IMG/VR virus record: IMGVR_UViG_3300030090_000930
Coordinates: 1-29,681 of that record
Reading direction: 5' to 3' (one strand)
Source: a virus
Length of the DNA: 29,681 nucleotides
The notes under the pieces are model-generated. The model saw nothing but the letters and a program-made list of their open reading frames with translations. It was not told the DNA's origin and did no database searches. How positions within the stretch are numbered: position 1 is the first letter of the stretch; the number at the start of each line of letters is the position of its first letter. Both the position numbers and the translations under genes were made by a program. Positions 198 to 26,397 of the stretch are shown piece by piece.

Positions 198-355
198 CAA
201 ATTATTACGATAGATTAAGACCAAGAGGTTTTAGATTTAAAAATGAAAAAGAATATTTACAAGAAAGAGACAAGTTATTAAATGAACATGGTAATGGATG
301 GTGGATAACTTATTGTATAGATAAAAGAAATAAAAGAACAAGAATAACAAAATAA
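194..355 (+). CDS. small hypothetical protein (53 aa)
   Basis: A 53-residue basic protein beginning MTNYYDRLRP. The frame has an earlier ATG at 161, but I chose 194 because that ATG overlaps the upstream TGA (ATGA) and the 161 start would overlap the previous gene by 37 bases. The protein is rich in Lys/Arg/Asn and has a GNGWWITY stretch near residues 33-40; no transmembrane segment or known motif is visible. It is the second gene of the + strand replication operon. Function unknown. Confidence 0.55.
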   Translation: MTNYYDRLRPRGFRFKNEKEYLQERDKLLNEHGNGWWITYCIDKRNKRTRITK

Positions 356-368
356 AAAAGGAGAGAGA

Positions 369-560
369 ATGGAAAAATGTTTTTCATTAGAAGAGATAAA
401 GTTTGCAGTCAATGTATCAGTAGGAGATGATGGACACAGAGCTAAAGAAGTGTCTGAAATATTAATATCAATATGGAATGAAAAAGAAAAATTATTAGAA
501 CGTAAGATACAAGACGAGCAAGCACGAGCATATAAGGAGAAAAGAATCAATGACCTATAG
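369..560 (+). CDS. small hypothetical protein (63 aa)
   Basis: A 63-residue, charged, helix-favouring protein with a good Shine-Dalgarno sequence (GGAGAGAG) just before the ATG. Its C-terminal half (about residues 33-60) is rich in Glu, Lys, Arg and Ala and could form a single long helix. Its last 11 bases overlap the start of the next gene in another frame. I recognise no family. Its place upstream of replication genes suggests an early phage protein, which is inference only. Confidence 0.6.
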   Translation: MEKCFSLEEIKFAVNVSVGDDGHRAKEVSEILISIWNEKEKLLERKIQDEQARAYKEKRINDL

Positions 561-954
561 AACAAGTAGGTTTAGCAAATGTCCTGAGTGTGGATTTGAC
601 CTCAATAGCAGAGGTAATAAAATGGGTAAAGAAATGTCCGAGATGCTTAGAGTAAGAACTAAGTATACTAGAAATAAAATCAATCACATAGCAACACTTA
701 TTAATGATTTGATACCATCACAAAACAGAACAGAATATTGGAAGTTTCTTGTAGGTATAAAAAATATAGATGATAAGATTGTAGACTATGGTATTGAGCA
801 ATACTATCAAGGTGGACATCATAACCAAGGTAAAGGTTTTCCTTATCTTAAAAAGATATTACAAACATTAGGACAAGATAACGAAGCAATAAAAGAACTA
901 GAACGTAAAAGAATTGGTGGAGTTCCACCGATAATAAAAGTAGGAGAGAAATAA
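550..954 (+). CDS. hypothetical protein with N-terminal CPEC zinc-knuckle-like motif (134 aa)
   Basis: The protein carries a CxxC pair (C11 and C14, CPECG) close to the N terminus, as in half of a zinc ribbon, but no second CxxC, so metal binding would need dimerisation or be absent. The rest looks alpha-helical and basic. The ATG at 550 lies 11 bases inside the upstream gene with an AAGGAG about 9 bases ahead. The stop at 952-954 overlaps the next ATG (TAATG), so it is coupled to the DUF932 gene. A nucleic-acid-binding role is possible but not shown. Confidence 0.65.
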   Translation: MTYRTSRFSKCPECGFDLNSRGNKMGKEMSEMLRVRTKYTRNKINHIATLINDLIPSQNRTEYWKFLVGIKNIDDKIVDYGIEQYYQGGHHNQGKGFPYLKKILQTLGQDNEAIKELERKRIGGVPPIIKVGEK

Positions 955-1745
955 TGAAAGCAAATATACAAGACATAATGTTTCCTGTTAAAGAAGTACC
1001 AGCTAGAATAACTAGCAAACTTCCACACAGAGATACTAAAGATACTGGATATAAGTTTATTGTAAGAGAAGATACTGGAGATGTCTTATCTTGCATGACA
1101 AATAATTACAAACTTATTGATAACTCTATGATTATAGAAAAGTCTGACAATGTTATTACAAAAGAAGGTGGTAAGCTAAAAGAAGTTCAAACTTTTGGTA
1201 ACGGAGCAAGAAGTATTGTAAAGTATGAGTTTGATAAGCATAAGATTACTATTAGTAATGGTGATATATGTACACCAGAAATAGTCTGGTCAAATAGTTA
1301 TGATGGAACTGTTGGATTAAATGTTCTAGCAGGAGCATTCAGACTAGTATGCACAAATGGATTGGTAATTGGTGTTGTTGCTGATAAATACAAAAACAAA
1401 CACATCATACAAAACATGGATTTACAAGACATTGAAGGTGTGATTGAAGAAACTATTAAGAAAACAAAACGAATTATGAAAGATGAATTTCCTGTTATTC
1501 ATGGTACTAAAGTTCAGCAATCACATATTGTTGATATACTTAAGATGTTTCCATTGCAATCATCAGACTACATTACTAATCTACTAATCGCAGAGAATCC
1601 TAATAACTTATGGGACCTGTTGAATGTAGCAACTAATGTAGCAACTCATGGTATGGATAGAAAAGCAGAAGCTACACACAAGCTAGAAGCAAGAATCTAT
1701 GCTAAAATATGTAAGATGGCAAAGGTACGAATAGCTAGTGCCTAG
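954..1745 (+). CDS. DUF932-family phage protein (263 aa)
   Basis: The segment at residues 123-140 (NVLAGAFRLVCTNGLVIG) is the conserved core I associate with DUF932, a family common in phages and plasmids. Members are often called anti-restriction-like or recombination-associated in annotation, but the biochemical role is not established. The N-terminal part (about 1-110) has the usual mixed alpha/beta pattern. It starts at an ATG overlapping the previous stop (TAATG) with AGGAGAG upstream, and ends at 1745, overlapping the GTG start of the methylase by 8 bases. Its partnership with a methylase and a helicase is consistent with a DNA-protection or replication role, which is inference. Confidence 0.75.
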   Translation: MKANIQDIMFPVKEVPARITSKLPHRDTKDTGYKFIVREDTGDVLSCMTNNYKLIDNSMIIEKSDNVITKEGGKLKEVQTFGNGARSIVKYEFDKHKITISNGDICTPEIVWSNSYDGTVGLNVLAGAFRLVCTNGLVIGVVADKYKNKHIIQNMDLQDIEGVIEETIKKTKRIMKDEFPVIHGTKVQQSHIVDILKMFPLQSSDYITNLLIAENPNNLWDLLNVATNVATHGMDRKAEATHKLEARIYAKICKMAKVRIASA

Positions 1746-2580
1746 TTTAGATTGGTACGATTGCCCGATTGTACTTCCTTATTATGGGGGTAAATATGAG
1801 ATGAGTAAAAAACTTATCCCACTTTTGCCCCCTCATGAGAGGTATATAGAAGTGTTTGCAGGCGGTCTTTCTATGTTCTTTAGGAAGGCCAAAGCAAAAT
1901 GGAACGTACTTAATGATAAAGATAAGAACATTGTAAATCTTTACATGAGTGTTATCTTAAAAAGAAAAGAACTAATAGATAATTTATTTTGGATTCCCAA
2001 AAGTCGTGATTTATTCTTAAATTTCAAGGGAGAGATAAGAGATGAAAATCATACATTCGAGATACCTGACCCATTACAAGCTGCTAAGTATCTGTATTGT
2101 ATACGATATAGTTTTAATAAACTAATTCATACTCCATTCTCTATGAATAAAGATATGAATAAAGACTGGGAAGCTGAATTGACATATTCAAGAAAATTTT
2201 TAGGTGGTGCAACAATAGAGAACTTAGACTTTGAAGAACTCATTGATAGGTATAATCCTAGAAAAGGTGATTTCTGGTATCTAGACCCTCCATATATTGT
2301 AGCAACAGAGAAAGGCTCATATTATAATCATAGTTTTGATATGGAAGACCATGTAAGATTACGAGAATGTGTGCAAAACATTCATGATAATGGTGGATAC
2401 TTTATGGTAAGTTATGATTACAGAGAAGAAGTTGCTGATTTATATCAGGACTTTGATTGTAGAACTCTTGATTGGAAATATGTAGGAGCAACAGATGAAG
2501 CTAGACAAAAAGGTAGAAAAGAATATGTCATAATAAATTATGAACCAACACAACAAATAAATATATTTAAGGAGGATTAA
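1738..2580 (+). CDS. Dam-like DNA adenine (N6) methyltransferase, D12 class
   Basis: Transfers a methyl group from S-adenosylmethionine to adenine in DNA. Visible motifs, in class alpha order, are the N-terminal PYYGGK (residues 14-19), the SAM-binding EVFAGG (38-43), and catalytic DPPY (183-186). At 280 aa the length fits Dam-type enzymes. The start is a GTG at 1738; the ATG at 1801 would remove the PYYGGK motif, so GTG is preferred although no good ribosome site precedes it and expression may rely on coupling to the DUF932 gene it overlaps. No cognate restriction endonuclease is adjacent, so it looks like an orphan phage methylase. Its target site cannot be read from the sequence; I found no GATC in the window. 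Confidence 0.9.
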   Translation: MPSLDWYDCPIVLPYYGGKYEMSKKLIPLLPPHERYIEVFAGGLSMFFRKAKAKWNVLNDKDKNIVNLYMSVILKRKELIDNLFWIPKSRDLFLNFKGEIRDENHTFEIPDPLQAAKYLYCIRYSFNKLIHTPFSMNKDMNKDWEAELTYSRKFLGGATIENLDFEELIDRYNPRKGDFWYLDPPYIVATEKGSYYNHSFDMEDHVRLRECVQNIHDNGGYFMVSYDYREEVADLYQDFDCRTLDWKYVGATDEARQKGRKEYVIINYEPTQQINIFKED

Positions 2581-3899
2581 TGAACGAAGAGATAAAAGAG
2601 ATAAAAGTATTACCACATTCAGAAGATGCAGAAAAAGCTTTGCTTGGATGCATACTTCAAGGTGATGCAAGAGAACAAGAAATTGCTATGGCTTGGGTAA
2701 GAAGTAATGAAGCATTCTACAATAATGATTGTAAAGATGTTTGGATTGCATTTAAAGAATTGTACAGAGACCAAATAGATATAGACTTTATTACTTTATC
2801 GGAAAAAGTACAAGAAATGAGTGGTAAACAACTTGCATATTTCATGACTGGACTTACTGATTTTGCACCTAGTAAAGCTAATGTAGAAAACTATGCAAAG
2901 ATAGTATGGCAAAAATACATACAAAGAGAAACTGCAAAGTCAGCAACTAAACTTGTAGATGCTAGTTACGATAATAATGGTAGTGTAAAAGAAATATTGA
3001 GTGAGCATAACAAACTTATTCAAGAACTAAAGAACATACAACCGTCTAAGCAAATAGATATGAATGTATTGATTGAAGATATGAAGAAAGTAATGGAAGA
3101 AGATTCTAATCTAATACCATTTAACCTAGCACATCTTGATTCATTCGCAGGTGGTATGACTCGTAAAGAGATTACTGTTATTGGAGGTAGACCTGGCCAT
3201 GGTAAGACTACACTTATTATTAATATTATTCGTGGTCTTATCTATCAGGGATACAATGTAATGCTATTTAATCGTGAGATGTCTAACACAGAAATGCTTA
3301 AGAAGATGGTAGTTATGGAGAGTAAAGGTCTTGAATATGGCCATGTTCGTAGAAATGAACTTGATGATGATAGTAAAGAACAATTTGAAATAACATCTGA
3401 TTTTATGAAAGAAAAGTACAGAAATCTAACAATGTATGATAACATACGAAGTTTAGATGATTGTCTAAGAGAAATATCTAAACATAAACCAGACGTTGTT
3501 ATTGATGATTACATACAATTGATTCAAGTAGATGGTATTAAAGAAGGTAGACGATTCGAGATTGAAAAGATTATGCAAGAATACAAATGGATTTCTAAGT
3601 CTGAAGATTGTAGTGTTATCTTAGTATCTCAACTTAACAGAGAGATTGAGAAACGTATTGACCCTAGACCTAGAATGAGTGATTATGCAGAAAGTGGTGT
3701 GATTGAACAAACAGCAGAATCTGCTATGTTTGTATTCTATGGACATAACTTTGATAGCGAAAGGTATGACCAACACAAAAGTGAAATCATTGTAGCTAAA
3801 AGCAGATATGGTAGAATAGGTACACATCAAGTTGGATTTAATGGTAATCGTTGTAAATTCTACATGAATGATAAACTAGCGAAAGATGATTCAAAATAA
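2580..3899 (+). CDS. DnaB-family replicative helicase
   Basis: A hexameric 5'-3' DNA unwinding ATPase of the replication fork. The N-terminal DnaB domain begins at about residue 9 (HSEDAEKALLGCILQG). The RecA-like domain shows Walker A GGRPGHGKTT (202-211), Walker B with D309/D310 (DVVIDDYIQL from 305), the VSQLNR sensor segment (349-354) and a conserved Arg-rich region after it. The 439-aa length is normal for DnaB. It has a strong AAGGAGG site and a TAATG overlap with the methylase gene. No primase or DNA polymerase is in the window; these would be elsewhere in the phage genome or supplied by the host. Confidence 0.95.
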   Translation: MNEEIKEIKVLPHSEDAEKALLGCILQGDAREQEIAMAWVRSNEAFYNNDCKDVWIAFKELYRDQIDIDFITLSEKVQEMSGKQLAYFMTGLTDFAPSKANVENYAKIVWQKYIQRETAKSATKLVDASYDNNGSVKEILSEHNKLIQELKNIQPSKQIDMNVLIEDMKKVMEEDSNLIPFNLAHLDSFAGGMTRKEITVIGGRPGHGKTTLIINIIRGLIYQGYNVMLFNREMSNTEMLKKMVVMESKGLEYGHVRRNELDDDSKEQFEITSDFMKEKYRNLTMYDNIRSLDDCLREISKHKPDVVIDDYIQLIQVDGIKEGRRFEIEKIMQEYKWISKSEDCSVILVSQLNREIEKRIDPRPRMSDYAESGVIEQTAESAMFVFYGHNFDSERYDQHKSEIIVAKSRYGRIGTHQVGFNGNRCKFYMNDKLAKDDSK

Positions 3900-4179
3900 A
3901 TCTTGTAATGGCTGCTACTACGAACACGATAGAACCTGTTATTGGTTTAAACTTGTTAATGGTAGCAGTCCAAAGATAATACCTGATGACACATTTAATA
4001 AAGGATGTAAGCAATATAAAAATAATAGTATTGTTAAAAGTAAAGTGATTGATAAATTTATTAAAGTTTTTGATGGTGAGATAATAGGAAATAAGTACAC
4101 TCCTACAAAATGGTCTGGTAATTACAAGAAGAAAACATATACTACAAGACATAAGTATACAGAAAGGAAAGACTTCTAA
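3886..4179 (+). CDS. small Cys4 putative zinc-binding protein (97 aa)
   Basis: Four cysteines in the first 41 residues (C7, C10, C18, C41: CNGC, then TCYWF, then KGC) suggest one zinc or iron-sulphur site; the C-terminal half is basic and Lys/Thr-rich. The start overlaps the end of the helicase gene by 14 bases and the stop overlaps the resolvase ATG (TAATG). Similar small Cys proteins often sit beside replication genes in marine phages, from general knowledge. A DNA-binding or replication accessory role is inference. Confidence 0.6.
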   Translation: MIQNKSCNGCYYEHDRTCYWFKLVNGSSPKIIPDDTFNKGCKQYKNNSIVKSKVIDKFIKVFDGEIIGNKYTPTKWSGNYKKKTYTTRHKYTERKDF

Positions 4180-4703
4180 TGATTACTATAGGAATAGACC
4201 CAGGTCGTAGTGGAGGAATTGTATTTGTAAATGGTGATACAATAATTGAAATGTATAAATGCCCAAAAACTATAGAAGAAATGGCAGAAATATTAGAACC
4301 ATATAGAATGACATGGGAAACCACAACACCAATTACAGCATACATTGAGCAAGTACATGCATTCCCAACGGATGCTCGTAGCAGTGCATTTAAATTCGGT
4401 ACTAACTATGGGATTTGGCAAGGTCTGCTAGCAGCTAATAAGATAGAAACAAAGTTCATTGCTCCACAAGTATGGATGAAGTCATTAGAGTTACCAAAAG
4501 ATAAAGTAAGTAGGAAAAAAGAAATAAAAATAATTGCACAAAGAGTAATTGATAAACAAGACTTACTGAAAAAGAAAGTAACACTACATACTGCTGATGC
4601 TGTACTTATAGGAATGTTTGGAGTTTTAAAAACTGCATTAGATAATATGAATCTAAAAGATAAAATTAATGCATTAACTAAATTAAAAAGGAGAGACAAA
4701 TGA
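4179..4703 (+). CDS. RuvC-like Holliday junction resolvase / phage endonuclease
   Basis: An RNase H-fold nuclease that would resolve branched DNA during replication, recombination or packaging. The acidic active site is visible: D7 in GIDPGRSGG, E57 in YIEQVH, and H137/D140 in HTADAVLIG near the C terminus, the pattern of RuvC enzymes, in which the third position can be His or Asp. At 174 aa the length matches RuvC. It starts at an ATG overlapping the preceding stop and overlaps the next gene by ATGA. Confidence 0.88.
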   Translation: MITIGIDPGRSGGIVFVNGDTIIEMYKCPKTIEEMAEILEPYRMTWETTTPITAYIEQVHAFPTDARSSAFKFGTNYGIWQGLLAANKIETKFIAPQVWMKSLELPKDKVSRKKEIKIIAQRVIDKQDLLKKKVTLHTADAVLIGMFGVLKTALDNMNLKDKINALTKLKRRDK

Positions 4704-4894
4704 TATTAGAAGAACATAAAGAAGACTTTAATTCATACATAGATACTATGAATAATATAAAAATGGCTATTAATGTAGCAACTAAAAAAGGAGATATTGA
4801 TACATTAATAAAAATACTAAAACAATTTTCTATTGCTACTGATTGTTTAGTAGGAATATTACAAGCAACTAAAAAAGAAAGAATTTCGGCTTAG
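4700..4894 (+). CDS. small hypothetical protein (64 aa)
   Basis: The last gene of the + strand operon, started by an ATGA overlap with the resolvase stop, with GGAGAG about 8 bases ahead of the ATG. The product looks like two amphipathic helices (about residues 5-30 and 32-58) with no motif I know. The proposed hairpin follows 16 bases after the stop. Confidence 0.6.
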   Translation: MILEEHKEDFNSYIDTMNNIKMAINVATKKGDIDTLIKILKQFSIATDCLVGILQATKKERISA

Positions 4895-4909: not shown

Positions 4910-4945
4910 GGAATGGGCAGGTACTATCTCTTACCTGCTCGTTCC
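4910..4945. terminator. hairpin at the junction of convergent operons (possible bidirectional terminator)
   Basis: Bases 4910-4923 (GGAATGGGCAGGTA) pair with 4932-4945 (TACCTGCTCGTTCC) over 14 positions, two of them G-T/U wobbles, around an 8-base loop. It lies between the stop of the + strand operon (4894) and overlaps the last codons and stop (4924-4926) of the - strand operon. Neither side has a clear U-tract, so it is not a textbook intrinsic terminator; it could still stop or stabilise both converging transcripts. A smaller 5-bp hairpin (4899-4912, tetraloop GCTG) overlaps its left arm and would compete with it. Confidence 0.55.
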
Positions 4946-7803
4946 AATTCTCTTAAAGCATTTTGCATACCTATTGACATTCCACTATGCTTTTTCTTTT
5001 TAGTTTTCTTTTTTAATCTATCAAAATAATAAGAACGTATTTCACTATTAAAAGGCATTGAAGTAGGGTACTCTTTCATTAAAGGTGGTAATACATCTCT
5101 CATAAATGATTGTTCACTTTTCTTTCTAGGATAAAGAGTTAATTCTTGAAATGCTGCAGTTGACCAAGAATATGGATTTTTAACTATCATAGGTATATAT
5201 CTATCTGCAAGTCTACCAGCAAATTGATTATAGAATTTAATATTTCTTATAGCTACATCTGTATTATCATCGTTTGTAAAATCACCAGTATTAAGTATTA
5301 AATTATTTAAATAGTCTTCATCTGCATTTACTAGTTCTGATGCTACTGCTATGTCTAATAAAGTACCAAATGTAGGACCTAACTTAGAACCAACAATTCC
5401 TTTACCATAAAAATTTCTATTTAATTTTTTTATTGATTCTTGGTCATCAAAGTCAGTAGTAAATAGTGTCCATAAATCTTCTAAAAATTCTTTTCCTGTA
5501 TGTTCAACAAGAGTTTGATTTAATCCTGTAAGATAACTTATTAAAGCAGGTGCTACAAAATAAGCATTAAACATATTCATTACTTTATGTACACCTCTAG
5601 CATCTGCAAACCATTCAGAATAACTATCAGCTTCTTTTCTTACATCATAATCACCTTTAGCTTCTTTAGCTATTGCATAGTTTCTTTCAATAAATTCCAT
5701 AGCATAATGTTGAAATTGAAATACAAATTGACCTATACCTTCTCTTAAATTTTTTGCTTTAGCATAAGAAGCATAATCAAAATGGTTAAGTATTACCATA
5801 TTCTTAGCATATGCTTGAGCGTACTTTCTTTTTTGTGATTCAATACTACCTTCAGTATCTACTTTAGATTCTAAAAATTTTACAAATTGTGGATTCTCAT
5901 CCATTGCTTTATATATAGAACCAAATGCTATCTTAGCAGTTAATTTTCTATTTGCATTTTCTATACCTCTATGCATACCAGAACTTTTTTGTGCTAATTT
6001 ACTCATACCTCTAGAAAATATTTTTAATCCTTTATAAGCAAAGTTTTCTTCATCTGTATAAATTATCTTACCATTTTCATCCATCTTTCTTATCTTATAT
6101 GGAGATTTTTTTTCTACTTTAATTTCAGATTCTATAGCTGCTTCTGATGCTTCATTCATTAATAAGTTAGCTTCTTTTAATTCATTCTCTAAATTAAACT
6201 TACTTAATACATTATTTTGTTTAAGAAATTTATTTGCTTCTCTTACACCAGAAAAAGTAAAAGTAGGAAGATTCATTAATATTTGAGTAGCATTTCTAGC
6301 TGCTGACCTAAAACTAAATCCTAATTTATTTGTAAATTGATATGCTAATAGTGTTCTCTTTATTAAATCTAAAGAACCTTGCTCTCTAGTATTACCTTTA
6401 ACAGAACCATGTATACTATTTATCATAGACAATATTTTATTAGAATAATCAGAGTCTTTAGTATATGTTTTTCTAGCATGATTTAAGGCATTCATATAAG
6501 AATCATTTAAAAATGCTGTTGTATTAAAACTATTAACATTATGTAAATATGTATTAACTACATCAACAAAATTTTTACTATATTCATAATCACCATCTCT
6601 ACTTCTTGTTTTAGCATGATTGGTAATCCAAAAATTCATATCATCTATAATGTCGTCTATACTTTTTTTCTCTCGTACTAAATCTAAGTCAGCAGTATTT
6701 AAATCATCTATATTCTTCATTAATCCATCCATCATAGTAGCATTTAAATCTCTAACAAAATGAGGAAAATAACCATCTTCTTTATATTTAGGCATTAATT
6801 CTGATATAAGTTTCTTTTGTAAATTTTCTAATGATTTAGCTGTACCTCTAAATTCAGGTCTTCCTTCTATTCTTTTAACTGTAGACTCAACAACTTTTTT
6901 AATACCATTGCGTAAATCTTTATAAGAATCAGTCATCATTTCATTATAATCTTTTACTGCTCCCCATAATGGTTCAGGAATACCAGCTCTTTCTAAATAT
7001 GAATAATATTCTTTACTATCTATTCTAACTAATTTTTCTCCACTATCGTATTCTTTTACTCTTTTTTTAGCTGCTCTAGTTTCTTTAGAGTTTAATCCTG
7101 ATTCTGCTAATGCAACTTCATCATTATATTTTGCTTGAATAGCATCTGGCATTAAATCTTCTACTATTTTTATAAAATCTACAAATCTTTTTACAGGACC
7201 TTTAGATTCAAAATCTGTTAATTTACTTTTAGCATCTTCTATTTTTATATTATCTCCAGAATCTAATGCTTTTGTGTATTCTAATTCTAAATTTCTATGT
7301 CTTACTAATGATTTCTTAATATCTTTTTCTGTATATTTACCACCACTTAATTCACCAGCTGCTCTAATTTTTTTTAAAACATTTCCAAATGAAGTATCTA
7401 AAGAATTTCTTCTTTTATTATCACTCTCCATTATTCCACGAATATTTTTTAATGTTTCAAATAGTACAGGGTCATTCTTAGATAACCAAGTACCAGTCAT
7501 AAAGCCTTCAAATCCATTAAATGCATTTAATTTGCCTTTAGAAACTCTATCAGCATACTTATCTAAAGCATCTAAATATGCTTTTGTGCTACCTGCTGTT
7601 AGTCCAAGATTACTACCTTGTTTTTGTGTAAGTAATACAGATGCTTCTATTGGCATTTGAAACATTGCTTCAAACATTGATATAGCTGCTTCATAAGGAG
7701 CTTGTATATTTTTACCTACTTTTTCTTTATTAACCCAAGATTCAATACCATCTATTAATTGTTTGGATTTTTTATTTTTTATTGAATTACAATCTAAGGA
7801 CAT
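4924..7803 (-). CDS. large putative internal virion protein (959 aa)
   Basis: The last gene of the - strand operon. It starts with an ATG 10 bases inside the giant gene's end, so the two are probably co-translated and work together. The protein is mostly helical and charged. Around residues 480-520 (LGFSFRSAARNATQ) and 690-730 (FDYASYAK, then FVFQFQHYAMEF) it has aromatic helical segments of the kind seen in large polyvalent or internal phage virion proteins. A hydrophobic patch near 760-785 (NAYFVAPALISYLTGL) could insert in membrane. The C terminus has a Lys-rich run (KKKTKKKKH). I propose a structural, DNA-ejection protein; no enzymatic motif is evident. Confidence 0.6.
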   Translation of the reverse strand: MSLDCNSIKNKKSKQLIDGIESWVNKEKVGKNIQAPYEAAISMFEAMFQMPIEASVLLTQKQGSNLGLTAGSTKAYLDALDKYADRVSKGKLNAFNGFEGFMTGTWLSKNDPVLFETLKNIRGIMESDNKRRNSLDTSFGNVLKKIRAAGELSGGKYTEKDIKKSLVRHRNLELEYTKALDSGDNIKIEDAKSKLTDFESKGPVKRFVDFIKIVEDLMPDAIQAKYNDEVALAESGLNSKETRAAKKRVKEYDSGEKLVRIDSKEYYSYLERAGIPEPLWGAVKDYNEMMTDSYKDLRNGIKKVVESTVKRIEGRPEFRGTAKSLENLQKKLISELMPKYKEDGYFPHFVRDLNATMMDGLMKNIDDLNTADLDLVREKKSIDDIIDDMNFWITNHAKTRSRDGDYEYSKNFVDVVNTYLHNVNSFNTTAFLNDSYMNALNHARKTYTKDSDYSNKILSMINSIHGSVKGNTREQGSLDLIKRTLLAYQFTNKLGFSFRSAARNATQILMNLPTFTFSGVREANKFLKQNNVLSKFNLENELKEANLLMNEASEAAIESEIKVEKKSPYKIRKMDENGKIIYTDEENFAYKGLKIFSRGMSKLAQKSSGMHRGIENANRKLTAKIAFGSIYKAMDENPQFVKFLESKVDTEGSIESQKRKYAQAYAKNMVILNHFDYASYAKAKNLREGIGQFVFQFQHYAMEFIERNYAIAKEAKGDYDVRKEADSYSEWFADARGVHKVMNMFNAYFVAPALISYLTGLNQTLVEHTGKEFLEDLWTLFTTDFDDQESIKKLNRNFYGKGIVGSKLGPTFGTLLDIAVASELVNADEDYLNNLILNTGDFTNDDNTDVAIRNIKFYNQFAGRLADRYIPMIVKNPYSWSTAAFQELTLYPRKKSEQSFMRDVLPPLMKEYPTSMPFNSEIRSYYFDRLKKKTKKKKHSGMSIGMQNALRELERAGKR

Positions 7804-10800
7804 TGTTGTATCTCTTTAAGTGTTCTTATTGTTTCTATGCCACTATCTTTCATAGGATTTTGTCTAGCACCAGTGCTTAATGATGCTTCAACTTCATTTA
7901 CAGATGCTAACATTCCTATTAATTTATTAGATGATTTTACAAGTTTAGGTTGAAACTTAAATGCTTTGTATTGTCTATACATAGGATTGTTTTTTAAATT
8001 TTCAGGTAATCCATCTTCACCTTCCTGATTAAATATATCTTTTTTAGCAAGTTCCATAAAATCTCTATCTAAAGATAATCTCATATCCATATACTTTAAT
8101 GGATTAATATAGTCTTTTCTATAAGCGTATTCATCTATATCATTTAATTTAGTAATAAAATTAGTATAATCATCACTTTGTTTATCTGGCATTGCTTCTG
8201 CTACTTCTCTGTATAATGACATAACAGATTTATTTATTGTTGAATAAACATTTGAAGGTAGCATTTCATTTAACCAACCAAACTCTAAATTATTTTTAAG
8301 TCTATTTTGCATATTAGTATCAAAAGGCATAATACCTAATTTATCTAATTGAGCATCACTTCTACTTCTCATAAGAACATCTTTATTAAAAAAGTTACTA
8401 TAATAATTATTTGATTTTATCATAGCTTTTAATTCTTCTTGAAAAAGAGCTCTAAAATTTTCATTAATAGTTACTTCATTTGATAATTGTTTTTTACCAG
8501 ATGCTATACTTGCCATTATTTGAATACCATGGCTGTATCTTTTAGATTCTTTATATGGTATTGCTATTGGTCTATTATTAAACACACCTATTGCATCTCT
8601 ATTTCTAGTAGGTTCCATGTAAGCATATAAAAATTCTAATCCATGCTCACTTATTTTATCCATAATAAATTTTTGTCTTATTTCAAACACATTAGAAACA
8701 CTAGTAGAATGAGTTGTTACAAAATCTAACATTTTTTTATCTGTTACTATACTTTTACCTCCATGTGGAAGTATTTGGTCTATTAATGTATTAGAACCAT
8801 ATGTTTGTTGATTAAAGTTTTTAATTGCTTTTAAATCTTCTCTACCTTCTTTTGTTAATAATTGATTAAAATTATCATATTGAAATGCGCCTGGAGTTTG
8901 TTTTAGTATAGCGTACATAGTATTAGCATGAACAATAGATTTTTTTAAATTACTTTCTTCTACATGAACATATTCTTTATACTTTAAATTTTGTGGATTT
9001 ATTTTTTTAATATCTTTTGCAAATGTTTTTTCAAAGTCTTCTTTTAGTCTACCTATAACATAATTAATAGCATTTATTTTTTGTCTTTTCCATTTAGGGG
9101 AGTAACTACTTTTTGATAAATATTTCTTTTTATTATCTAGTCTTTTTATTGTTGCTATTCTTTTATTAAAATCTTGTGTATCTCTTACAACTTCTCCAGC
9201 ATATGTATCTAAATCTTGTGTAGGTATAGTATCATAATCAGCATCTTGATTACCTTTATCATCCCCATTATAATCTTGTTGCCTAGAAGGATAAGTAACT
9301 AAATCATCAAACCATTCATCCATTTCAAGCATTGTATTACTATCGATTTCATACTGCTTTGCATCTTCCATTAAATCTTGTTTGGCAATATTAACAGCAA
9401 TTCTATCTAAATAAGAACCACCTGTTCCATCATATATTGAAGTTGCCGTATCAGATATAGGTTCAAATGCATTGTTACTCTCATTTAATAAATTATCTAA
9501 ATATTTTTGTTCATTTCCTGTTAAACCATATTTTTTTCTTTTATGAAATAATTGTCTAGTTAAAGAAGAATAAAGATTTTTATGAAACGATTTAAATTTT
9601 TTCGAACCTAAATATAAATCATAAAATGTAGAACTTCTAGGAGTGCCTGCTTCATATTGACTATCTCCAAATGCATTAATTAATTTATTTTGTTGATTTA
9701 AAAACTCTCTAGCAATTAATTTATCTGCATTATTAACCTTACCTGTTGCTCTATATTTACCATCAGCGTCTAATTTAAATTTTTGAAATATTCTTATTCT
9801 TTTACCTTCAGCGTTTTGACCATTTAGTACAATATCTTTTACATCTTGAGCTCTTACTTCTTTTGGAGAAATAGATTTTTTAAACTCTGGAAATAAAAAA
9901 TCATCTGACCAATCATATATATTAGAAGATATATTAGGATTTAATCTTCCATCTCCATCTAATAAATATTGAACTTCTGTAGCAGCTCTATGATAATATG
10001 CAAGAACTTTAGTATCTATTGTAACAAATTCATCTTCTCCAGACTTATATAATATTTCAGGACCTTCAATCTCACCAGTTTTTTCATTTACAACTGTATG
10101 TAAATCCCATTGGTCTTTTGTATCTGGATTTAAAAGATGTGTTCTATCTGCTAAATTTTGTAAATAGTTTATTCTTCTTTGAGTTTTTTGTGCTATACCT
10201 ATTGCTTGTTTATAAGATATTGAACTACCCATTTTTGATAACATTGCTTTACTAGATTGTTTTGCATTTAATTGAAATGTAAATGTTCCTCCAAGACTAT
10301 ATTCACTAGGGTCTGATGATTGAACAGAGTAAGGTTGCACTCTATCTATATGGTCAAAAACATGCTCACTATGTGCAAAAAAGTAATCTACTTTATCTGC
10401 ATCATAATCACCCTCATATGTATTTGCTATATCAAAACTATTTATTTCTACAGCTAAACCTTGTTTTTCATCTAAGAATCCTTTTAACCCTAGTAATGTA
10501 AGGTCATTAGGTTTAGTTCTAGGATTTCTTCTAGCTGCAATTGCTAGTTCATATCTAACCCCAGTTAAATCTGCTATATCATTAATTAATTGATGTGTAC
10601 TTCCGACTGTAGCATCTTCTTTAAATAATCTATCAAGATTATCAACATCAAATCCATCTTCTTTTATTATTTCATTTTCTTTTAATTCATTTAAAAATTG
10701 TTCTTTAGTAAGTATTCTATCATTTTGTACAATTCTTATTTGTTTTATATTTGGTAAATTAGATAATGGAGTTTCTCTTTCTTTATTAGGTAACATTATT

Positions 10801-13800
10801 TGACCTCTCATAACCATATTATTTTGATTATCAAATAAAGTAGGAAGTAATCTTGTTTTTAAATTATCATCTATATGACTTTTAACAGATTGTATTATAT
10901 ATGCTTGACCTCCGTATCGACCAGATTCTTCAACTGACTCACCTATTATTCTATTTGTTATACTTCTTCTATTTGTAAATATATTATCTATATATTCTTT
11001 TGCTAAATATTTTTGTACTTGATTTAAACTATAATCAGATGGGTCTCCATAAACATTATTTTCATTTTCTAATTTTAAATAATACATTAATGTACTAAGA
11101 TTACCTAATGCTCCTTCTGATGCATCTTCTGGTATATCTCCATCTATGAGTTTCTGTTGCATAAAAGCATTCATTTTAATAGGGTCTGCTATTATGTTTT
11201 TCATTTGCTCTAAGTTATCAAAAAACTCTGGACTTATTTCATTAAATGCTTTTTCACTTTCACGATTATTATAAAAGTTATAATCTGCTGGAGATTCTAC
11301 CGCTGATAATAAGTCAGCATCTTTTTCTGGTCTTAATCCTAATGCATCTATATCTATTTTTCTAATAAGATTATTTTTTTCTTCTATTTTATAATTAGAT
11401 AATTCAAACCATCTTTTATTTTTAATAATAGTTTCATCACCACCATCATATACTTTACCACCAGTTCCAGTAATTAAAATATCAACATCTCTATTTGTAT
11501 TAAAAAATCCATCTAATGATGGTTCATATACTAATAAAGTTTTACCATATAATAATGTTTTTCCTTCTCCTTGAGATGATATAACAGGCTTTATCGGATT
11601 TACAGAATTAGGGTCATGCCCTAAATAGGTATGATATTCCATCATTGCATCTCTAGATATATAAGATATACTATCAAAACCAGATACTGCATCATGAGCA
11701 TTACCAAGATTATCTAACTTAAAACCTTGCATTTGTTCTGGAAACTCGTCTTCTAAATCTTTAATTATTTGGCGCATAGATTCTCCACCATCATCCCAAA
11801 TAACGACATTATGAGATTTCTTTTTAAGTCTTTTCTTAATTAATTGTGATGGTTTGTCTAATTGTCCTTTAGTAGTTAATGCTGTTCTTGCTTGTAATAA
11901 AGATTTTAAATAAATATCTGTTGGTCTTACAAAGTTTTTTGTAGTTACTAACTTAATTCTTTTTATAACATCACTTACATCTTTAGGGTCTGTTGCATCT
12001 AATGTTTTATAAAATAAATCATTTGTTTTACTTTTAAACCCTACTTCAAGTATTAAAAATCTAGAAGCTAACTCAACACTTTTTTCATTATAAAAGTTTT
12101 TATCATCAGTATTATCAAAATCTTTCTTTAATTCATCTAATACTTTTTTAGTATTAGCACTTACATTACCAGAATGTTCATCATAAAATCTATTAAAATC
12201 ATCTACTATCTTTCTCATATCAACAGTTCTAATAGCAATACTATCCATACCATCAAATATATCTAATTTTATAATTCCTATTTCATCAGGGGGGATACCA
12301 TAATCATCTGTTATTATATCAACATCACCTCTTTTGCCTTGATTATAATTAAAACTAATACCAGCTTTATGTTTACCAAATGTTAATCCTGCTATATTTT
12401 CTGAAACTTGATTTCGTATAGCTAATATTTTTGCTTTAAGATTATCAGGAACATTTTCTGTTTGTAGTAAATTATATTTTCTTTCTACCATTACTCCTGA
12501 TTGGTCATGTTCTTTTATAATTACATTATTATCAAAAAAAGAATAATCGATACCAATATTATTTAAATATTTATTAACAGGATTATTTTGCATTAATTCT
12601 TTTTGGTCTGAGAAAAATAAATTACCATCATCATAATTAATTTTATTTACAGAAACTTTATCTTTTTTACCAAATACAACTTGAGTAATATCTTCTATTA
12701 CTCTTCCCTTTTGTTCTATGCTTAAATCTTTAAAGTCTACTCCTCTTGATACAATAGAATTAGCCATTCTTTGAATTGATGTTTGAGTAATTTTTAATTT
12801 GCCATTATCATCTTTATCAAAAATAACACTATCAAAATGTTCTGTTAATTGTTTTGAATCATGATTTTTAAAGTCAGATATTTTTATACTACCATCATCT
12901 TTAATTGCTTTAAAATCATATCTTTTATAAAAACTATCTATGCCTAAAGATGGATTCTTTATAACATCACTAGCATCACTATTATATAATCTTTCTAATG
13001 CTTCTTCTTTTCTTTTACGTTGTTGATTTTCTACAAATTTATCAGAAAATCCTTTTTTATCTACATAATTACCTATCTCTCTTAGACCTTCTTCAAATTG
13101 TAATATGTTTTCATTGTTAGCTTTTACTTCTAATTCACCATCAGCATTTCTTTTAATCACACCTTGATTTTTAAGCATACTCATAACATTACCTTGAGCT
13201 TCTACACCATAGTGTATAAAGTAATCTTTTATTTTATTACGAATATTGTCTACAGGTGTATTTCTCATTGCATCAAATAATACATTTAAAGCATTATTTT
13301 GTTCTACTCTTGTCTCTCCAGAATAAATAGAATCCATTATATCTTTTAATTTTAAAGCAGTAGCTTTTTTTATAATAATAGGTTCATCAACTACTTGAAC
13401 TAACCCTTCTGATTCTTGATTTAAATTACTTAATTTTTCATTATATCTAATTTCAAGAGCAGGGTCGCTAGGTATGTGTACTTTTACTAATTGAAATCCT
13501 CTTATACCTTTATCTGCAATAAGGCCAGGCTTACTAAATAACTCATTGCCAGATTGTTGTATAATAAAATCAACATCAGCATTACTTACTATTGAATTAT
13601 TTAATCGTTTTCTATTTATATCTGAAATAACCATTTCATACATAAATTGTAAATTTGGTTTATTAAAAGTGTCTACATTAAAACCTAATTCATCTAAATA
13701 ATATTTTAAACTTTGTACTCTATCAGGTTCTATTTTTGTATTTTGAGATGGAGTTTCTGTAATTTCATACTTACCCATTGCTCTAATAATACCATGTATC

Positions 13801-16364
13801 TTACCTAACTCTAATGCTTTGTTTTCATCTGTTGATTGTATTTTAGAAAAGTCACTTATAATTTTTTTATCATGAAGTATACCAACATCAACTAATAAAC
13901 TTTCTAATCTATCATCTGTTTTTTCAGGGTCAAATATCTCCATTACTCTTTTAGTAGTTTGATTCCCTTTATTTTTAATCATAGGTATGATATATGATTC
14001 TACATCTGTAAATGTAAATTTACTTCTACCATCAAAGTTTTTATTAGAACCATCAATTGCTCTTTCAGCATCTCTCACTATATTATATATAGCTTTTAAA
14101 CTTTCACTAGATTGAATTGTATTAACTGTTTGTTTATGTGTCTTTGCTCTACCTAATCCCTTTGATACTTCAGCAACCATCTCTAAACTATCAAACATAT
14201 CTAATAATTCTTGCTCTGCTTCTAATCCTTCTTTATTATTTAACCACTCTACAAACTCTCCATTACGAGCTCTCTTTAATAATTCTTCTGATGCTTTAAA
14301 ATCCCTACCGACTATTAATCCTCTATTTGTAGACCTAATAGTAAAATCATCTAAGTTAGCATTATTAATATCTTCTAATACTCCAACAACAGATTGTTCC
14401 ATTCCTTTTGTTGACTCTACAACTCTATCTTCATGTGCATTTAATATATCTTCAACAGTTTTAAAACCTTGAGCATCTAATATTCTTTCAATTTCATCTG
14501 CTTGTTTTTTAGATATTTGTTCTGGTCTTTTTATATACTTAAAATCTTCATCTAGTAATCCATAAAATGCTTCTAATTTACCATTTGTAGGGTCTATTCC
14601 TTGACCTGGCACTGTTTCTAAATCTAAAAATGTTTGTTCACCTTCAGGTAATTTATCATTAGTAATAGTAATATCATCATCACTTACTATTCTTTGTTCT
14701 TTTAAATACGATGTTAATTCTGGATTATCTCTTACTATACCTACACCAAATCGTTCATTACCTTTTGAAAATGAATTTGCAAATGAAGTATTTTGAACTG
14801 GAACGCCAAATTCTTCTAATCCATTTCTAAGTTTTTCTATTCTACCTCCAATATCAACTTTACCAACACCTCTTCTTTGTGTAAAAGCACCTATTAATAT
14901 TGAAGAAACATAATCTGTAGGGTCAAATTCAAAATCTTCTCCTTGTTCATATTTAGTTCTAAGTAATTGAGTACCTCCCATAGCTGCGCCAGCTGCTAAC
15001 ATTCTAGGAAATATTGCTTTATAATTACTCCACGCTTCTTTACCAGACTCTTTTATAAAATCTTTAGAATATTCTTTTTTATATTTCATTAACCACTTTA
15101 TTGATTCTTCTCTAGCATTATCACCATATTCTCTTTGTAATTCTCTTTCAACATTTTTATAAGCAAGTTCTTTATTGCCTTTTCGTTTAAGTCTTATATT
15201 TCCTATTCTTATTGGCTTTCCATTCATAGCATTATGTTCAGCCATTTCTACTAATTCTTTACTTAAATAAGTTAAACTTCTTTTCTTATAAGTATTTTTA
15301 CCTAAATAACCTCTTAATCCTGATATAAAATCTTGCCTTGATTGAGACATTTTAGCAAGTGGTTTAAATGGAGCTGTTAATACATTTATAGAAGTTCCAG
15401 CTGCAAATCCATAAGCCATTTCAAAACCAACTTTACTCCAATCATAATCAGGTAAATTAAGAGCATTTTTACCTTGTTTAATTCTTTGTTTTGCTTGACC
15501 AGTTAATTCAATCATTGCATCTGCACCAGCAAATACAGTTGCATCTAATATTAATTCTGGTAGTATCCTACCCATTGTACTATTTGTTCCATATGTAACT
15601 CTTGCTAAATCTTGCAATGAATGTATTGGAACTCCTTTTTGACTAACTGCATCAGCCATATTTCTAATTACAGTTGCTTGTTCTTTAGTAAGTCTATTAG
15701 AACCTATACCTCTTCCTATATAACTATTTATATTTTTATTAAATGATTCTCTAAATAATTCATCTGTTTTTTGACTTTTAGATAAAAACTTATTAGCCTC
15801 TCCTTTTAATTTATTATTAAAATCATTTACTTGTTTTTTAGAAAGTTTACTTACACCTTCTACTTTAGAAGCTCTTTTAGTAGCTCCTTTTAATGTTTGC
15901 TTTCCAAATAAATTAATAAATTTTTTAGGTATTCCTAATGCAGTAGCAGCTCTTAAACTTAATTTCATAGGAGCTCCAAATAAATACCCTAATCCTGTAC
16001 CTACTCCTCCTGTAATTTTAGCAGCTGTACTTTCTTGTTGAAATTCTAAAGCTAAATCCTCTGAACCAATACCTTTGTAATCTACATCAAAATATCTTTC
16101 AGTAGCTGCTTCTACTAAACTAGGAACACCAAGAAGAGCAGATTCTCCAAATCCATAAACACCAGTATATAATGATTTACCTACAGCTTTAAGCGCTCCT
16201 AATGCACTTCCTTCTGGTTCTCTTGGTTGTAGTGGCATGACGTTTTCAATAACATCATTTTTTTCATTAAGATTATGTGCATTTATAAATGCATTTTGAG
16301 AATTTTGTTCTTGTTGTAGCCTTATTCTCTCTATAGCTTTTCTAATTTCTTCATTAGTAGACAT
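7794..16364 (-). CDS. giant virion protein (2856 aa), candidate divergent two-barrel RNA polymerase
   Basis: A single uninterrupted frame of 8.6 kb. Residues 1-500 contain several Gly/Ala-rich hydrophobic stretches (for example GGVGTGLGYLFGAP and AYGFAAGTSINVL), as in ejected internal proteins. Residues about 1850-1995 resemble the RNA polymerase beta' catalytic barrel: MRGQIMLPN from M1850, R-N-P at 1946-1948, LGLKGF from 1958, and DYDAD with D1986, D1988 and D1990 in place of DFDGD. Upstream, K1602/K1608 (GKTLLYGK) and K1637 (TGTGGKV) are candidates for the beta-type barrel lysines. The middle Gly of the triad loop is Ala, which is unusual. It sits among presumed internal virion proteins and just before the 959-aa partner. 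If correct, it would be carried in the virion and transcribe early phage genes after entry. Otherwise it is a structural ejection protein with a chance match. Confidence 0.6.
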   Translation of the reverse strand: MSTNEEIRKAIERIRLQQEQNSQNAFINAHNLNEKNDVIENVMPLQPREPEGSALGALKAVGKSLYTGVYGFGESALLGVPSLVEAATERYFDVDYKGIGSEDLALEFQQESTAAKITGGVGTGLGYLFGAPMKLSLRAATALGIPKKFINLFGKQTLKGATKRASKVEGVSKLSKKQVNDFNNKLKGEANKFLSKSQKTDELFRESFNKNINSYIGRGIGSNRLTKEQATVIRNMADAVSQKGVPIHSLQDLARVTYGTNSTMGRILPELILDATVFAGADAMIELTGQAKQRIKQGKNALNLPDYDWSKVGFEMAYGFAAGTSINVLTAPFKPLAKMSQSRQDFISGLRGYLGKNTYKKRSLTYLSKELVEMAEHNAMNGKPIRIGNIRLKRKGNKELAYKNVERELQREYGDNAREESIKWLMKYKKEYSKDFIKESGKEAWSNYKAIFPRMLAAGAAMGGTQLLRTKYEQGEDFEFDPTDYVSSILIGAFTQRRGVGKVDIGGRIEKLRNGLEEFGVPVQNTSFANSFSKGNERFGVGIVRDNPELTSYLKEQRIVSDDDITITNDKLPEGEQTFLDLETVPGQGIDPTNGKLEAFYGLLDEDFKYIKRPEQISKKQADEIERILDAQGFKTVEDILNAHEDRVVESTKGMEQSVVGVLEDINNANLDDFTIRSTNRGLIVGRDFKASEELLKRARNGEFVEWLNNKEGLEAEQELLDMFDSLEMVAEVSKGLGRAKTHKQTVNTIQSSESLKAIYNIVRDAERAIDGSNKNFDGRSKFTFTDVESYIIPMIKNKGNQTTKRVMEIFDPEKTDDRLESLLVDVGILHDKKIISDFSKIQSTDENKALELGKIHGIIRAMGKYEITETPSQNTKIEPDRVQSLKYYLDELGFNVDTFNKPNLQFMYEMVISDINRKRLNNSIVSNADVDFIIQQSGNELFSKPGLIADKGIRGFQLVKVHIPSDPALEIRYNEKLSNLNQESEGLVQVVDEPIIIKKATALKLKDIMDSIYSGETRVEQNNALNVLFDAMRNTPVDNIRNKIKDYFIHYGVEAQGNVMSMLKNQGVIKRNADGELEVKANNENILQFEEGLREIGNYVDKKGFSDKFVENQQRKRKEEALERLYNSDASDVIKNPSLGIDSFYKRYDFKAIKDDGSIKISDFKNHDSKQLTEHFDSVIFDKDDNGKLKITQTSIQRMANSIVSRGVDFKDLSIEQKGRVIEDITQVVFGKKDKVSVNKINYDDGNLFFSDQKELMQNNPVNKYLNNIGIDYSFFDNNVIIKEHDQSGVMVERKYNLLQTENVPDNLKAKILAIRNQVSENIAGLTFGKHKAGISFNYNQGKRGDVDIITDDYGIPPDEIGIIKLDIFDGMDSIAIRTVDMRKIVDDFNRFYDEHSGNVSANTKKVLDELKKDFDNTDDKNFYNEKSVELASRFLILEVGFKSKTNDLFYKTLDATDPKDVSDVIKRIKLVTTKNFVRPTDIYLKSLLQARTALTTKGQLDKPSQLIKKRLKKKSHNVVIWDDGGESMRQIIKDLEDEFPEQMQGFKLDNLGNAHDAVSGFDSISYISRDAMMEYHTYLGHDPNSVNPIKPVISSQGEGKTLLYGKTLLVYEPSLDGFFNTNRDVDILITGTGGKVYDGGDETIIKNKRWFELSNYKIEEKNNLIRKIDIDALGLRPEKDADLLSAVESPADYNFYNNRESEKAFNEISPEFFDNLEQMKNIIADPIKMNAFMQQKLIDGDIPEDASEGALGNLSTLMYYLKLENENNVYGDPSDYSLNQVQKYLAKEYIDNIFTNRRSITNRIIGESVEESGRYGGQAYIIQSVKSHIDDNLKTRLLPTLFDNQNNMVMRGQIMLPNKERETPLSNLPNIKQIRIVQNDRILTKEQFLNELKENEIIKEDGFDVDNLDRLFKEDATVGSTHQLINDIADLTGVRYELAIAARRNPRTKPNDLTLLGLKGFLDEKQGLAVEINSFDIANTYEGDYDADKVDYFFAHSEHVFDHIDRVQPYSVQSSDPSEYSLGGTFTFQLNAKQSSKAMLSKMGSSISYKQAIGIAQKTQRRINYLQNLADRTHLLNPDTKDQWDLHTVVNEKTGEIEGPEILYKSGEDEFVTIDTKVLAYYHRAATEVQYLLDGDGRLNPNISSNIYDWSDDFLFPEFKKSISPKEVRAQDVKDIVLNGQNAEGKRIRIFQKFKLDADGKYRATGKVNNADKLIAREFLNQQNKLINAFGDSQYEAGTPRSSTFYDLYLGSKKFKSFHKNLYSSLTRQLFHKRKKYGLTGNEQKYLDNLLNESNNAFEPISDTATSIYDGTGGSYLDRIAVNIAKQDLMEDAKQYEIDSNTMLEMDEWFDDLVTYPSRQQDYNGDDKGNQDADYDTIPTQDLDTYAGEVVRDTQDFNKRIATIKRLDNKKKYLSKSSYSPKWKRQKINAINYVIGRLKEDFEKTFAKDIKKINPQNLKYKEYVHVEESNLKKSIVHANTMYAILKQTPGAFQYDNFNQLLTKEGREDLKAIKNFNQQTYGSNTLIDQILPHGGKSIVTDKKMLDFVTTHSTSVSNVFEIRQKFIMDKISEHGLEFLYAYMEPTRNRDAIGVFNNRPIAIPYKESKRYSHGIQIMASIASGKKQLSNEVTINENFRALFQEELKAMIKSNNYYSNFFNKDVLMRSRSDAQLDKLGIMPFDTNMQNRLKNNLEFGWLNEMLPSNVYSTINKSVMSLYREVAEAMPDKQSDDYTNFITKLNDIDEYAYRKDYINPLKYMDMRLSLDRDFMELAKKDIFNQEGEDGLPENLKNNPMYRQYKAFKFQPKLVKSSNKLIGMLASVNEVEASLSTGARQNPMKDSGIETIRTLKEIQQCP

Positions 16365-16365: not shown

Positions 16366-17481
16366 TTATTGACTATAGTATTGTTCTATTTCTTCTATTG
16401 TAAAGTTTTTACCAGTGTTAGGATTTATTTCTTTTAATAATGCATTTTCTACTTCTGGTTCTATACTATATCTAGAATCAAAATTTAATCCTTTTTGCTC
16501 TGCAACTAAATCAGCAGCCGCTTTTAATTGTTTATTTACATTAGAAGTTGCTACTCTATTTAAAGATTGTTGTAAACTAGCACTTTGCAATATATTGTCA
16601 AAAGATTTTTTATTATCTTGTAAATCTTTTATTTGGCTATTTAATTGATACCATATTTTATCTGAACCCTCTCCTTGAAAATTTACAAAAGATTGCAATG
16701 TACCTACTTTATTTCCTCTATTATTTATTGCAGAATTAAAAAAGTTTTCTAATGATTCCATAAAGTAAGAATTATTTTGAATACCTAATTCAGTATTTTT
16801 AGTTTTTAAACTTTCACTTAAAGAAAGAATTAAAGCATCTCCAAACTTACTATTCTCACCGAATGTTTTATTAATATATTGTGCATTATCTTGTCCTTTT
16901 GTAGCATTTCTAATATCTTCTTGTATTGCTGAAATATCAAAAGCATCAGAAGAACTTAATGCAGTTTCTACTTTAGATAGAACAACGGCAGGAATAATAC
17001 CAGAATCTTTTACCATATCTATAAGATTTTCTGAATCTTGATAATACCCTCTTTCTAAATTTGTTTTAAAAGCATCGTTTGCTTTTTCTTTTGATGTTCG
17101 TACTGCTTCTTCTAAATTAAATTCTTTTATTAAAACACCTAATTCTTTTTCTCTTTCAATATTTTTTTGAGTTTTAGTATAACTCTCACTTTTTATATTG
17201 TCTTCTAATACTTTTATTTCTAAATCAAGTTTTTTATTTTGTTTTCCTATTCTATCTAATTCTTCTTTATCTTTTGTAATTTGAGATAATTGTTGAGATG
17301 ATGTTCTTCTTTCTTGAGCATCTCTTAACGCCATAGTTTGAGCTTGAAAAGCAGCTTCTCTTTCTTGTTGTTGAAGTCTTCTACCCATATCAAGCATTGC
17401 TAAAGATTTATCTATCTTTTGACGTTCTCGTTCTTGTTTATATTTTAATATTGCGTTTAATGATTGTAATGCTTGAGACAT
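16366..17481 (-). CDS. putative internal virion protein, coiled-coil rich (371 aa)
   Basis: Residues about 10-130 are dense in Gln, Glu, Lys and Arg with a heptad-like pattern (QERERQKIDK, RRLQQQEREAAF), predicting a long coiled coil. The remainder is helical and polar with no catalytic motif. It lies directly upstream of the giant gene with one base between stop and next ATG. The composition and place recall the core or ejection proteins of short-tailed phages (T7 gp14-gp16 in concept), but this is by analogy only. Confidence 0.55.
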   Translation of the reverse strand: MSQALQSLNAILKYKQERERQKIDKSLAMLDMGRRLQQQEREAAFQAQTMALRDAQERRTSSQQLSQITKDKEELDRIGKQNKKLDLEIKVLEDNIKSESYTKTQKNIEREKELGVLIKEFNLEEAVRTSKEKANDAFKTNLERGYYQDSENLIDMVKDSGIIPAVVLSKVETALSSSDAFDISAIQEDIRNATKGQDNAQYINKTFGENSKFGDALILSLSESLKTKNTELGIQNNSYFMESLENFFNSAINNRGNKVGTLQSFVNFQGEGSDKIWYQLNSQIKDLQDNKKSFDNILQSASLQQSLNRVATSNVNKQLKAAADLVAEQKGLNFDSRYSIEPEVENALLKEINPNTGKNFTIEEIEQYYSQ

Positions 17482-17484
17482 ATG

Positions 17485-17988
17485 TTATCCGAATATTCCA
17501 AAGTATTTTTTATTTGCTTGTTGTCCTGCTAATCGTTTTTGCATTTCTAATTGTTGCCTTTGCGATTGCATTTCAAATCTTTGTTGTTCAAAGTTAGATA
17601 AAACATCTGCAAGACTTTTACCTAACGATATATCTAAGTCTTCCATTTTAGTAGTAAATCCTTTTCTTATATCTTTCATTCTATCCATATCCATAGATTG
17701 ACCTGCGAATCCAGATGCTTCACTAATTTGTTGTTGAGACTTTCTAGTTTGTTCTAATGCTCTTTGTCCAGATTCAGAAAGTTTTTCAGAGGACCTCCTT
17801 GCTTCTAATGTAGGTAATTGTAGACTAGATTGAAGAGATTGATTTAATGATTCTTCTGCTTGCCCTAAAGAAGATAAAGCATCTTTATAAAAACCCATTT
17901 GAGCTCTACCTTGTTCTCTTGCATCTGTAGTTGCACCATATTCTTGAGCTGATGATAATGCAAAATTAAGTGTAGCTAATAAACTCAT
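17485..17988 (-). CDS. putative internal virion protein, Gln/Ser-rich (167 aa)
   Basis: A 167-residue helical protein with an Ala/Ser-rich N terminus (LLATLNFALSSAQEYGA) that could be a weak membrane-active helix, followed by Gln/Ser/Glu-rich coiled-coil-like stretches, including EQQRFEMQSQRQQLEMQKR at about 134-152. AAGGAT precedes the ATG. It is three bases from the next gene and six from the previous one. Size and composition fit a small internal core protein like T7 gp14; no sequence motif confirms that. Confidence 0.5.
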   Translation of the reverse strand: MSLLATLNFALSSAQEYGATTDAREQGRAQMGFYKDALSSLGQAEESLNQSLQSSLQLPTLEARRSSEKLSESGQRALEQTRKSQQQISEASGFAGQSMDMDRMKDIRKGFTTKMEDLDISLGKSLADVLSNFEQQRFEMQSQRQQLEMQKRLAGQQANKKYFGIFG

Positions 17989-17996
17989 ACTAATCC

Positions 17997-18695
17997 TTAA
18001 CTATATAAATCTAAAATATTTTGTGGTACAGGAGGCAAATCTTTATCATATCTAACATCTCCAAATTGGCTTTCTTCTTTTTCTCCATATTTAAATCTTT
18101 CTACATCTCTGTTTACTTGCATAGTGGATGGTTTCATTTTATTTATATTACTAATATTAATTGTTCCATAACCTGCTTGCATTGGTTGTAATGTAGGAGT
18201 AGGTCTATCCATTAATGATTCACCTTCTGTCATTTCTAATAAATTCTTAGCCATTCTTTTTGAAAATATTTCATCACCTCTAGCAGATACATCATATTGA
18301 CTACCTAAAGATTTATCTCCTATAAAGTATTCTTGCTTACCAGTTAAATAAGAAGTCAAAGAACCTTTTTTACCTTTTAATACATCAGACAAACTTGTTT
18401 TTTCCATTCTAAAATCTTTTTTTAAATCAGATGGTAATGCTTCTTTAAATCTTTCTACACCTTGTGCAATCTCTTTTTTTTGTTCTATACCACCTACAAT
18501 TGTTTGCCCTAATTCCATACCAGAATATAGAGTATCATACATAGTTCTTTTTTCTTGTTGCTCTAAATCAAACATCATAGAAGATTCTTTTGCAGACATT
18601 AAAGAACTACTTACATCTGCTAACGAAGACATTATTCTTCTTTCACTTCCTGATTTAGACCTAATTGCTGATTTTATTTGTGCTGCTGTTGCCAT
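17997..18695 (-). CDS. putative virion-associated protein (232 aa)
   Basis: A 232-residue Ser/Met/Lys-rich protein with no motif I recognise. The first 75 residues look helical (SSLADVSSSLMSAKESSMMF) and the C-terminal 60 are extended and Pro-rich (DRPTPTLQPMQ, LPPVPQNIL). It is the first gene after the only sizeable spacer (62 bp) in the tail-to-core part of the operon and has no clear Shine-Dalgarno sequence. The context between the tail fibre and the internal proteins suggests a virion component. Confidence 0.5.
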   Translation of the reverse strand: MATAAQIKSAIRSKSGSERRIMSSLADVSSSLMSAKESSMMFDLEQQEKRTMYDTLYSGMELGQTIVGGIEQKKEIAQGVERFKEALPSDLKKDFRMEKTSLSDVLKGKKGSLTSYLTGKQEYFIGDKSLGSQYDVSARGDEIFSKRMAKNLLEMTEGESLMDRPTPTLQPMQAGYGTINISNINKMKPSTMQVNRDVERFKYGEKEESQFGDVRYDKDLPPVPQNILDLYS

Positions 18696-26396: not shown

Positions 26397-26397
26397 A

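Follow-up and report, generated by a model that had tools for sequence, protein, structure and literature searches.

A giant phage protein with the predicted two-barrel fold of a single-chain RNA polymerase, closest to the virion enzyme of crAss-like phages

A 2856-aa protein encoded in a 29.7-kb viral DNA fragment (29,681 nucleotides, hereafter the window) is, with high probability, a single-chain two-barrel DNA-dependent RNA polymerase (RNAP) whose closest fold is that of the crAss-like virion RNAP (vRNAP), and which is probably packed and ejected for early transcription. This reading follows from a profile alignment that puts its aspartate triad exactly on the crAss triad, together with a fold match and a set of invariant residues. 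Its parts differ in firmness: the two-barrel fold is nearly certain, RNA polymerase activity is very likely, and packaging in the virion, judged from gene position, neighbours and analogy, is probable.

Results

Gene position and neighbouring genes

The polymerase gene (Table 1) is among the last large genes of the structural block and is convergent with the replication genes. The same strand carries long fibre-like genes upstream (phrog_33450 tail fibre, 4.6e-28); a Dam-type methyltransferase, a DnaB helicase and a Holliday junction resolvase are encoded downstream in the convergent direction. The vRNAP of crAss-like phage phi14:2 is likewise a single giant chain; its gene, too, stands close to the end of a structural block on the minus strand, and this block converges with replication genes.

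Table 1. Features of the polymerase gene and its neighbours (window coordinates)
Feature	Coordinates	Strand	Basis
Predicted single-chain two-barrel RNA polymerase gene, 2856 aa	7794-16364	(-)	Open reading frame, homologues, structure model
N-terminal part (1359 residues), conserved among near relatives; possible role in ejection or virion attachment	12288-16364	(-)	
Modelled polymerase region, residues 1360-2460	8985-12287	(-)	pLDDT 83.9, pTM 0.81
Putative beta'-type (catalytic) barrel, residues ~1818-1998	10371-10913	(-)	Fold match and motif alignment
DYDAD triad (D1986, D1988, D1990), predicted metal-binding	10395-10409	(-)	Invariance and alignment on crAss triad
R1946-x-P to triad segment, 40-residue spacing	10395-10529	(-)	
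MVMRGQIML (residues 1850-1858), upstream of the triad in the same predicted domain; forms two short strands	10791-10817	(-)	Model
Candidate beta-type barrel block, residues ~1555-1660, with invariant K1592, K1608, K1637	11385-11702	(-)	
Helix 2034-2071 (38 residues) following the catalytic barrel, candidate bridge helix	10152-10265	(-)	Model
959-aa gene next downstream, at a place kept across related loci; probably encodes a co-ejected virion protein	4924-7803	(-)	
Three genes (371, 167, 232 aa) separating the polymerase gene from the tail fibres; candidate internal virion proteins	16366-18695	(-)	

In related loci, the polymerase gene is followed by a gene of mostly 900-1000 aa (117 counted among overlapping loci, which are not independent contigs). 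Its representative in the window, the 959-aa protein, carries a conserved HFDY...GQFQHY-like motif. It matched the NCBIfam PLxRFG domain family weakly, far below the cut-off, and comparison with phi14:2 gp76/crAss001 gp49 gave no significant similarity (P=0.22). No convincing family match was obtained for the 371-, 167- and 232-aa proteins.

A cluster of small Lys/Arg/Cys-rich proteins, one of them matching DUF6321 (1.9e-12), is encoded on the minus strand at window positions 26014-27292. Shine-Dalgarno-like sites were found for 7 of the 9 plus-strand genes on the replication side (161-4894) versus 4 of the 18 minus-strand genes on the structural side (4924-29322), with a background of 8% at random positions; this difference could stem from the host type or from the two blocks being expressed differently. 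A search for candidate vRNAP promoters in the form of 13-mers repeated between genes found none, and in one early region a sigma-70 scan gave fewer matches than shuffled sequence would lead one to expect, an uninformative result. A T7-type RNAP (PF00940) gave no match in 10 records, in a search that returned no positive-control match either.

An active two-barrel RNAP need not travel in the virion: P23-45 gp64 is a single-chain two-barrel RNAP outside the virion (PMC10770324), and an enzyme of this kind, like gp64 or YonO, could be made in the cell for middle or late genes. The 2856-aa protein is, however, far above the size needed for such a role (gp64 has 616 aa), has an N-terminal extension of about 1360 residues that near relatives conserve, and is encoded inside the structural block, adjoining the tail fibres. 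We consider a purely intracellular enzyme improbable and retain the virion-borne polymerase as the preferred reading.

Predicted fold of the polymerase region

An AlphaFold2 model of residues 1480-2260, built from 34 sequences (pLDDT 72.1, pTM 0.70), was compared with the PDB using Foldseek. The best match was 6vr4_A, the phi14:2 vRNAP (E=1.6e-6), followed by QDE-1 (E 7.3e-5 to 1.4e-3) and, lower, by the AR9 and phiKZ nvRNAPs, Rpb1 and beta', all two-barrel enzymes. This phi14:2 protein (PDB 6VR4) is called gp66 by Drobysheva et al. 2021 and gp077 in the record (AGO48955). Against BFVD, the top two entries were unnamed viral proteins (TM 0.70 and 0.61), and many later matches were crAss phage proteins.

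A larger second model, covering residues 1360-2460 with 49 sequences, was better (Table 1). Its sole PDB match below 0.001 was again 6vr4_A (E=2.3e-9, probability 1.00), the other top-50 rows being cellular two-barrel RNAP chains or complexes (E 0.015-0.07). The AlphaFold/Foldseek comparison that the first-pass annotation had suggested as a check returned a significant match to a two-barrel crAss vRNAP. Identity in this fold match is about 11% and the Foldseek TM, 0.28 by query, is low, with an rmsd of 20.6 across 1146 columns; as far as the model goes, the agreement is one of local fold, without good global superposition.

The beta'-type region of the second model comprises strands 1850-1852, 1855-1858, 1938-1945, 1955-1963, 1971-1974 and 1991-1995, and the triad occupies the loop that joins helix 1976-1983 to strand 1991-1995. 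In this arrangement the three aspartates may converge on one metal; the catalytic loop block, with a mean pLDDT of 71, is the less certain part of the model.

The same barrels are found in RNA- and DNA-making enzymes (PMC10770324), so a two-barrel polymerase that makes another product or reads another template, such as a primase, an RNA-templated enzyme like QDE-1 or a DNA polymerase like PolD, has to be weighed. QDE-1, which ranked second for the first model, shares with the 2856-aa protein the single-chain two-barrel fold of the eukaryotic RNA-interference RNAPs, but it is a cellular and not a phage protein and is absent among the matches listed for the second model (top 50). The best match, and with the better model the only significant one, is instead a DNA-dependent vRNAP, and the gene lies in the structural block, apart from the replication genes. 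Such an alternative activity is quite unlikely, and a DNA-dependent RNAP remains the preferred reading.

Catalytic motif and invariant residues

The translated open reading frame contains R1946-N-P, L1958-GLKGF, GLAVEIN (from 1969) and GDYDADKV with D1986, D1988 and D1990, all as read in the first-pass annotation; the methionine adjoining RGQIMLPN is M1852 and not M1850 as given there, residue 1850 being the Met two positions earlier. The E. coli beta' positions given there for comparison agree with the fetched rpoC sequence (NRAP at 424, with R425; LGIQAF at 432; NADFDGD at 458, with D460). LG is separated from the first Asp by 28 residues in both proteins, and R from the first Asp by 40 residues here against 35 in E. 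coli, which bears out the proposed five-residue insertion. Motif order is also common to the 2856-aa protein and E. coli beta'/beta, which differ from it in being two chains and in showing no significant sequence similarity. Among 20,000 protein shuffles, R-x-P and D[F/Y]DxD occurred at the right distance in 0.24%, and never when the LG..F element was added (0/20,000), so the motif is not a product of chance.

The protein and its profiles gave no convincing match in Pfam, PHROGs, NCBIfam or PDB sequences; tblastn of the protein against 50,697 deposited phage genomes found no relative, nor did the search of bacterial and archaeal genome contigs. Iterated IMG/VR searches, by contrast with these libraries, led from 11 to 34, 42 and at least 79 loci encoding relatives, whose identity to the query used falls as low as 24%. 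The 56 distinct complete homologues are 2589-3002 aa long.

Across 49 homologue cores, 28 of 781 aligned positions are invariant. Near the triad these include P1948, T1950, P1952, D1954, F1963, G1969, D1978, E1984, G1985, D1986, Y1987, D1988 and D1990, among others, and R1946 is an Arg in 48 of the 49. Loss of the triad in homologues, which the first-pass annotation had named as a refutation, was not seen: all three aspartates are kept in 49/49. The residue preceding the third Asp varies (A in 38, I in 4, V in 3, F in 2 and Y in 2 sequences) and is I or V in crAss phages (DFD[I/V]D); the earlier idea that Ala in place of Gly is a distinguishing trait was rejected.

A second invariant block (K1592, P1593, G1607, K1608, T1609, D1628, K1637) sits 350-400 residues upstream of the triad in the same chain, an order expected for a fused beta-beta' chain. 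From its sequence, it is a candidate beta-type lysine block, to which the first-pass annotation made no reference. A structural or ejected protein with a chance motif resemblance, or a dead polymerase, could be imagined for a protein recognised by no family library tried, but is hardly credible when so few residues are invariant in relatives down to 24% identity and these include the triad and the lysines, when shuffles fail to give the motif and when the fold match is independent of it.

Sequence relationship to crAss RNAPs

With single sequences as targets (E. coli beta', gp96, gp64 and gp66), hhalign gave no significant alignment, in an underpowered comparison in which even gp66 alone failed. 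A significant signal required a crAss profile, built from nine gp66-type RNAPs: one comes from Flavobacterium phage Fpv1, the other eight from phages that are crAss-like or unclassified. Against this profile, the family profile A6 scored 47.0 (P=1.8e-4, single comparison), versus a maximum of 25.4 for 150 column-shuffled crAss profiles and 17.3 for the reversed profile; the shallower first profile, A4, gave P=0.033. In the A6 alignment, R-x-P and DxDxD coincide residue on residue, which indicates similarity to the crAss-type RNAP lineage around the catalytic motif. The lysine block aligned in the same order to LKGVY...YLK...GVK of gp66, a marginal result (score 16.6, exceeded in 2/200 shuffles).

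In phi14:2 gp66, R1322-I-P and D1361-F-D-I-D-K lie 39 residues apart, and its triad context, GSDFDIDKM, resembles GDYDADKV at 40 residues; a non-Gly residue and a Lys in the triad loop are common to the crAss vRNAP and the 2856-aa protein. The single-chain two-barrel RNAPs gp96 and gp64 of phage P23-45 have a spacing of 38 and differ by a Gly in the loop (DFDGD/DYDGD) and by no significant sequence similarity. The Fpv1 record (KU599877), whose taxonomy line gives no placement in Crassvirales, contains a 13.2-kb "structural protein" gene with the gp66-like RNAP motif GLDYDIDK.

Phages encoding the polymerase family

Since the window is a fragment without portal, capsid and terminase genes, the head type was judged by a relative as proxy. 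This near-complete 50.3-kb contig encodes a terminase (phrog_38), a P22-like portal (PF16510, 5.3e-50) and an SU10-type capsid (PF17236, 3.2e-20), the latter two unlike those of crAss-like phages. Zero Crassvirales records were among the tblastn matches of its portal and capsid to deposited phages, and no crassvirus was among the matches listed for its terminase, in line with the earlier suggestion of a phage of another kind. The longest contigs related to the window are 48-56 kb, versus about 100 kb for crAss-like phages.

Both ends of the 50.3-kb contig carry overlapping, similar but non-identical portal sequence (L015 1-747; L016 11244-13340), which suggests that the genome is nearly complete and that strains differ. 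A tape measure was not recognised among the phage genes examined, so a short tail is likely for these phages.

Discussion

The first-pass annotation had proposed a giant single-chain two-barrel RNAP. The two-barrel fold, the invariant triad and lysines, 6vr4_A as nearest structure and the non-Crassvirales head genes largely uphold this proposal, from which the special status of the Ala has to be removed. In the predicted enzyme, the beta-type barrel would contribute the invariant lysines and the beta'-type barrel the three Asp holding the catalytic Mg2+.

By analogy with the crAss001 cargo (PMC10172136) and P23-45 gp96 (PMC10770324), the polymerase, encoded at the end of the structural block, would most likely be packed in the head, ejected along with the DNA and neighbouring internal proteins, and would then serve to express the earliest phage genes, either ahead of the host polymerase or independently of it. 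The fused N-terminal part of 1359 residues, which near relatives conserve, may have a role in packing or ejection. In the crAss001 virion, three RNAP-associated cargo proteins are thought to unfold partly upon ejection (PMC10172136), whereas here one chain of 2589-3002 aa is accompanied by one large downstream gene. P23-45 gp96 is, like the RNAP proposed here, located inside a giant virion protein; it is fused to the tape measure of a long-tailed phage (PMC10770324).

Our literature search, with most subscription journals outside its scope, found no paper on this polymerase family. On balance, we favour the view that a widespread and undescribed phage clade outside Crassvirales injects its own crAss-type single-chain RNAP. 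Virion-borne two-barrel RNAPs are already known from crAss-like phages, jumbo phages and relatives of P23-45. The existence of a large family of them in smaller phages of another head type, unrecognised by every library tried, would mean that more kinds of phage begin transcription with an injected enzyme of their own. Ordinary phylogenetic methods fail for single-chain two-barrel polymerases (PMC10770324), and the broad identity spread of the family offers sequence intermediates for relating them. If the reading is true, the crassviruses, where this virion-transcription strategy was first found, would be younger or less mobile than the strategy itself, and such intermediates would make it possible to trace how single-chain two-barrel polymerases descended.
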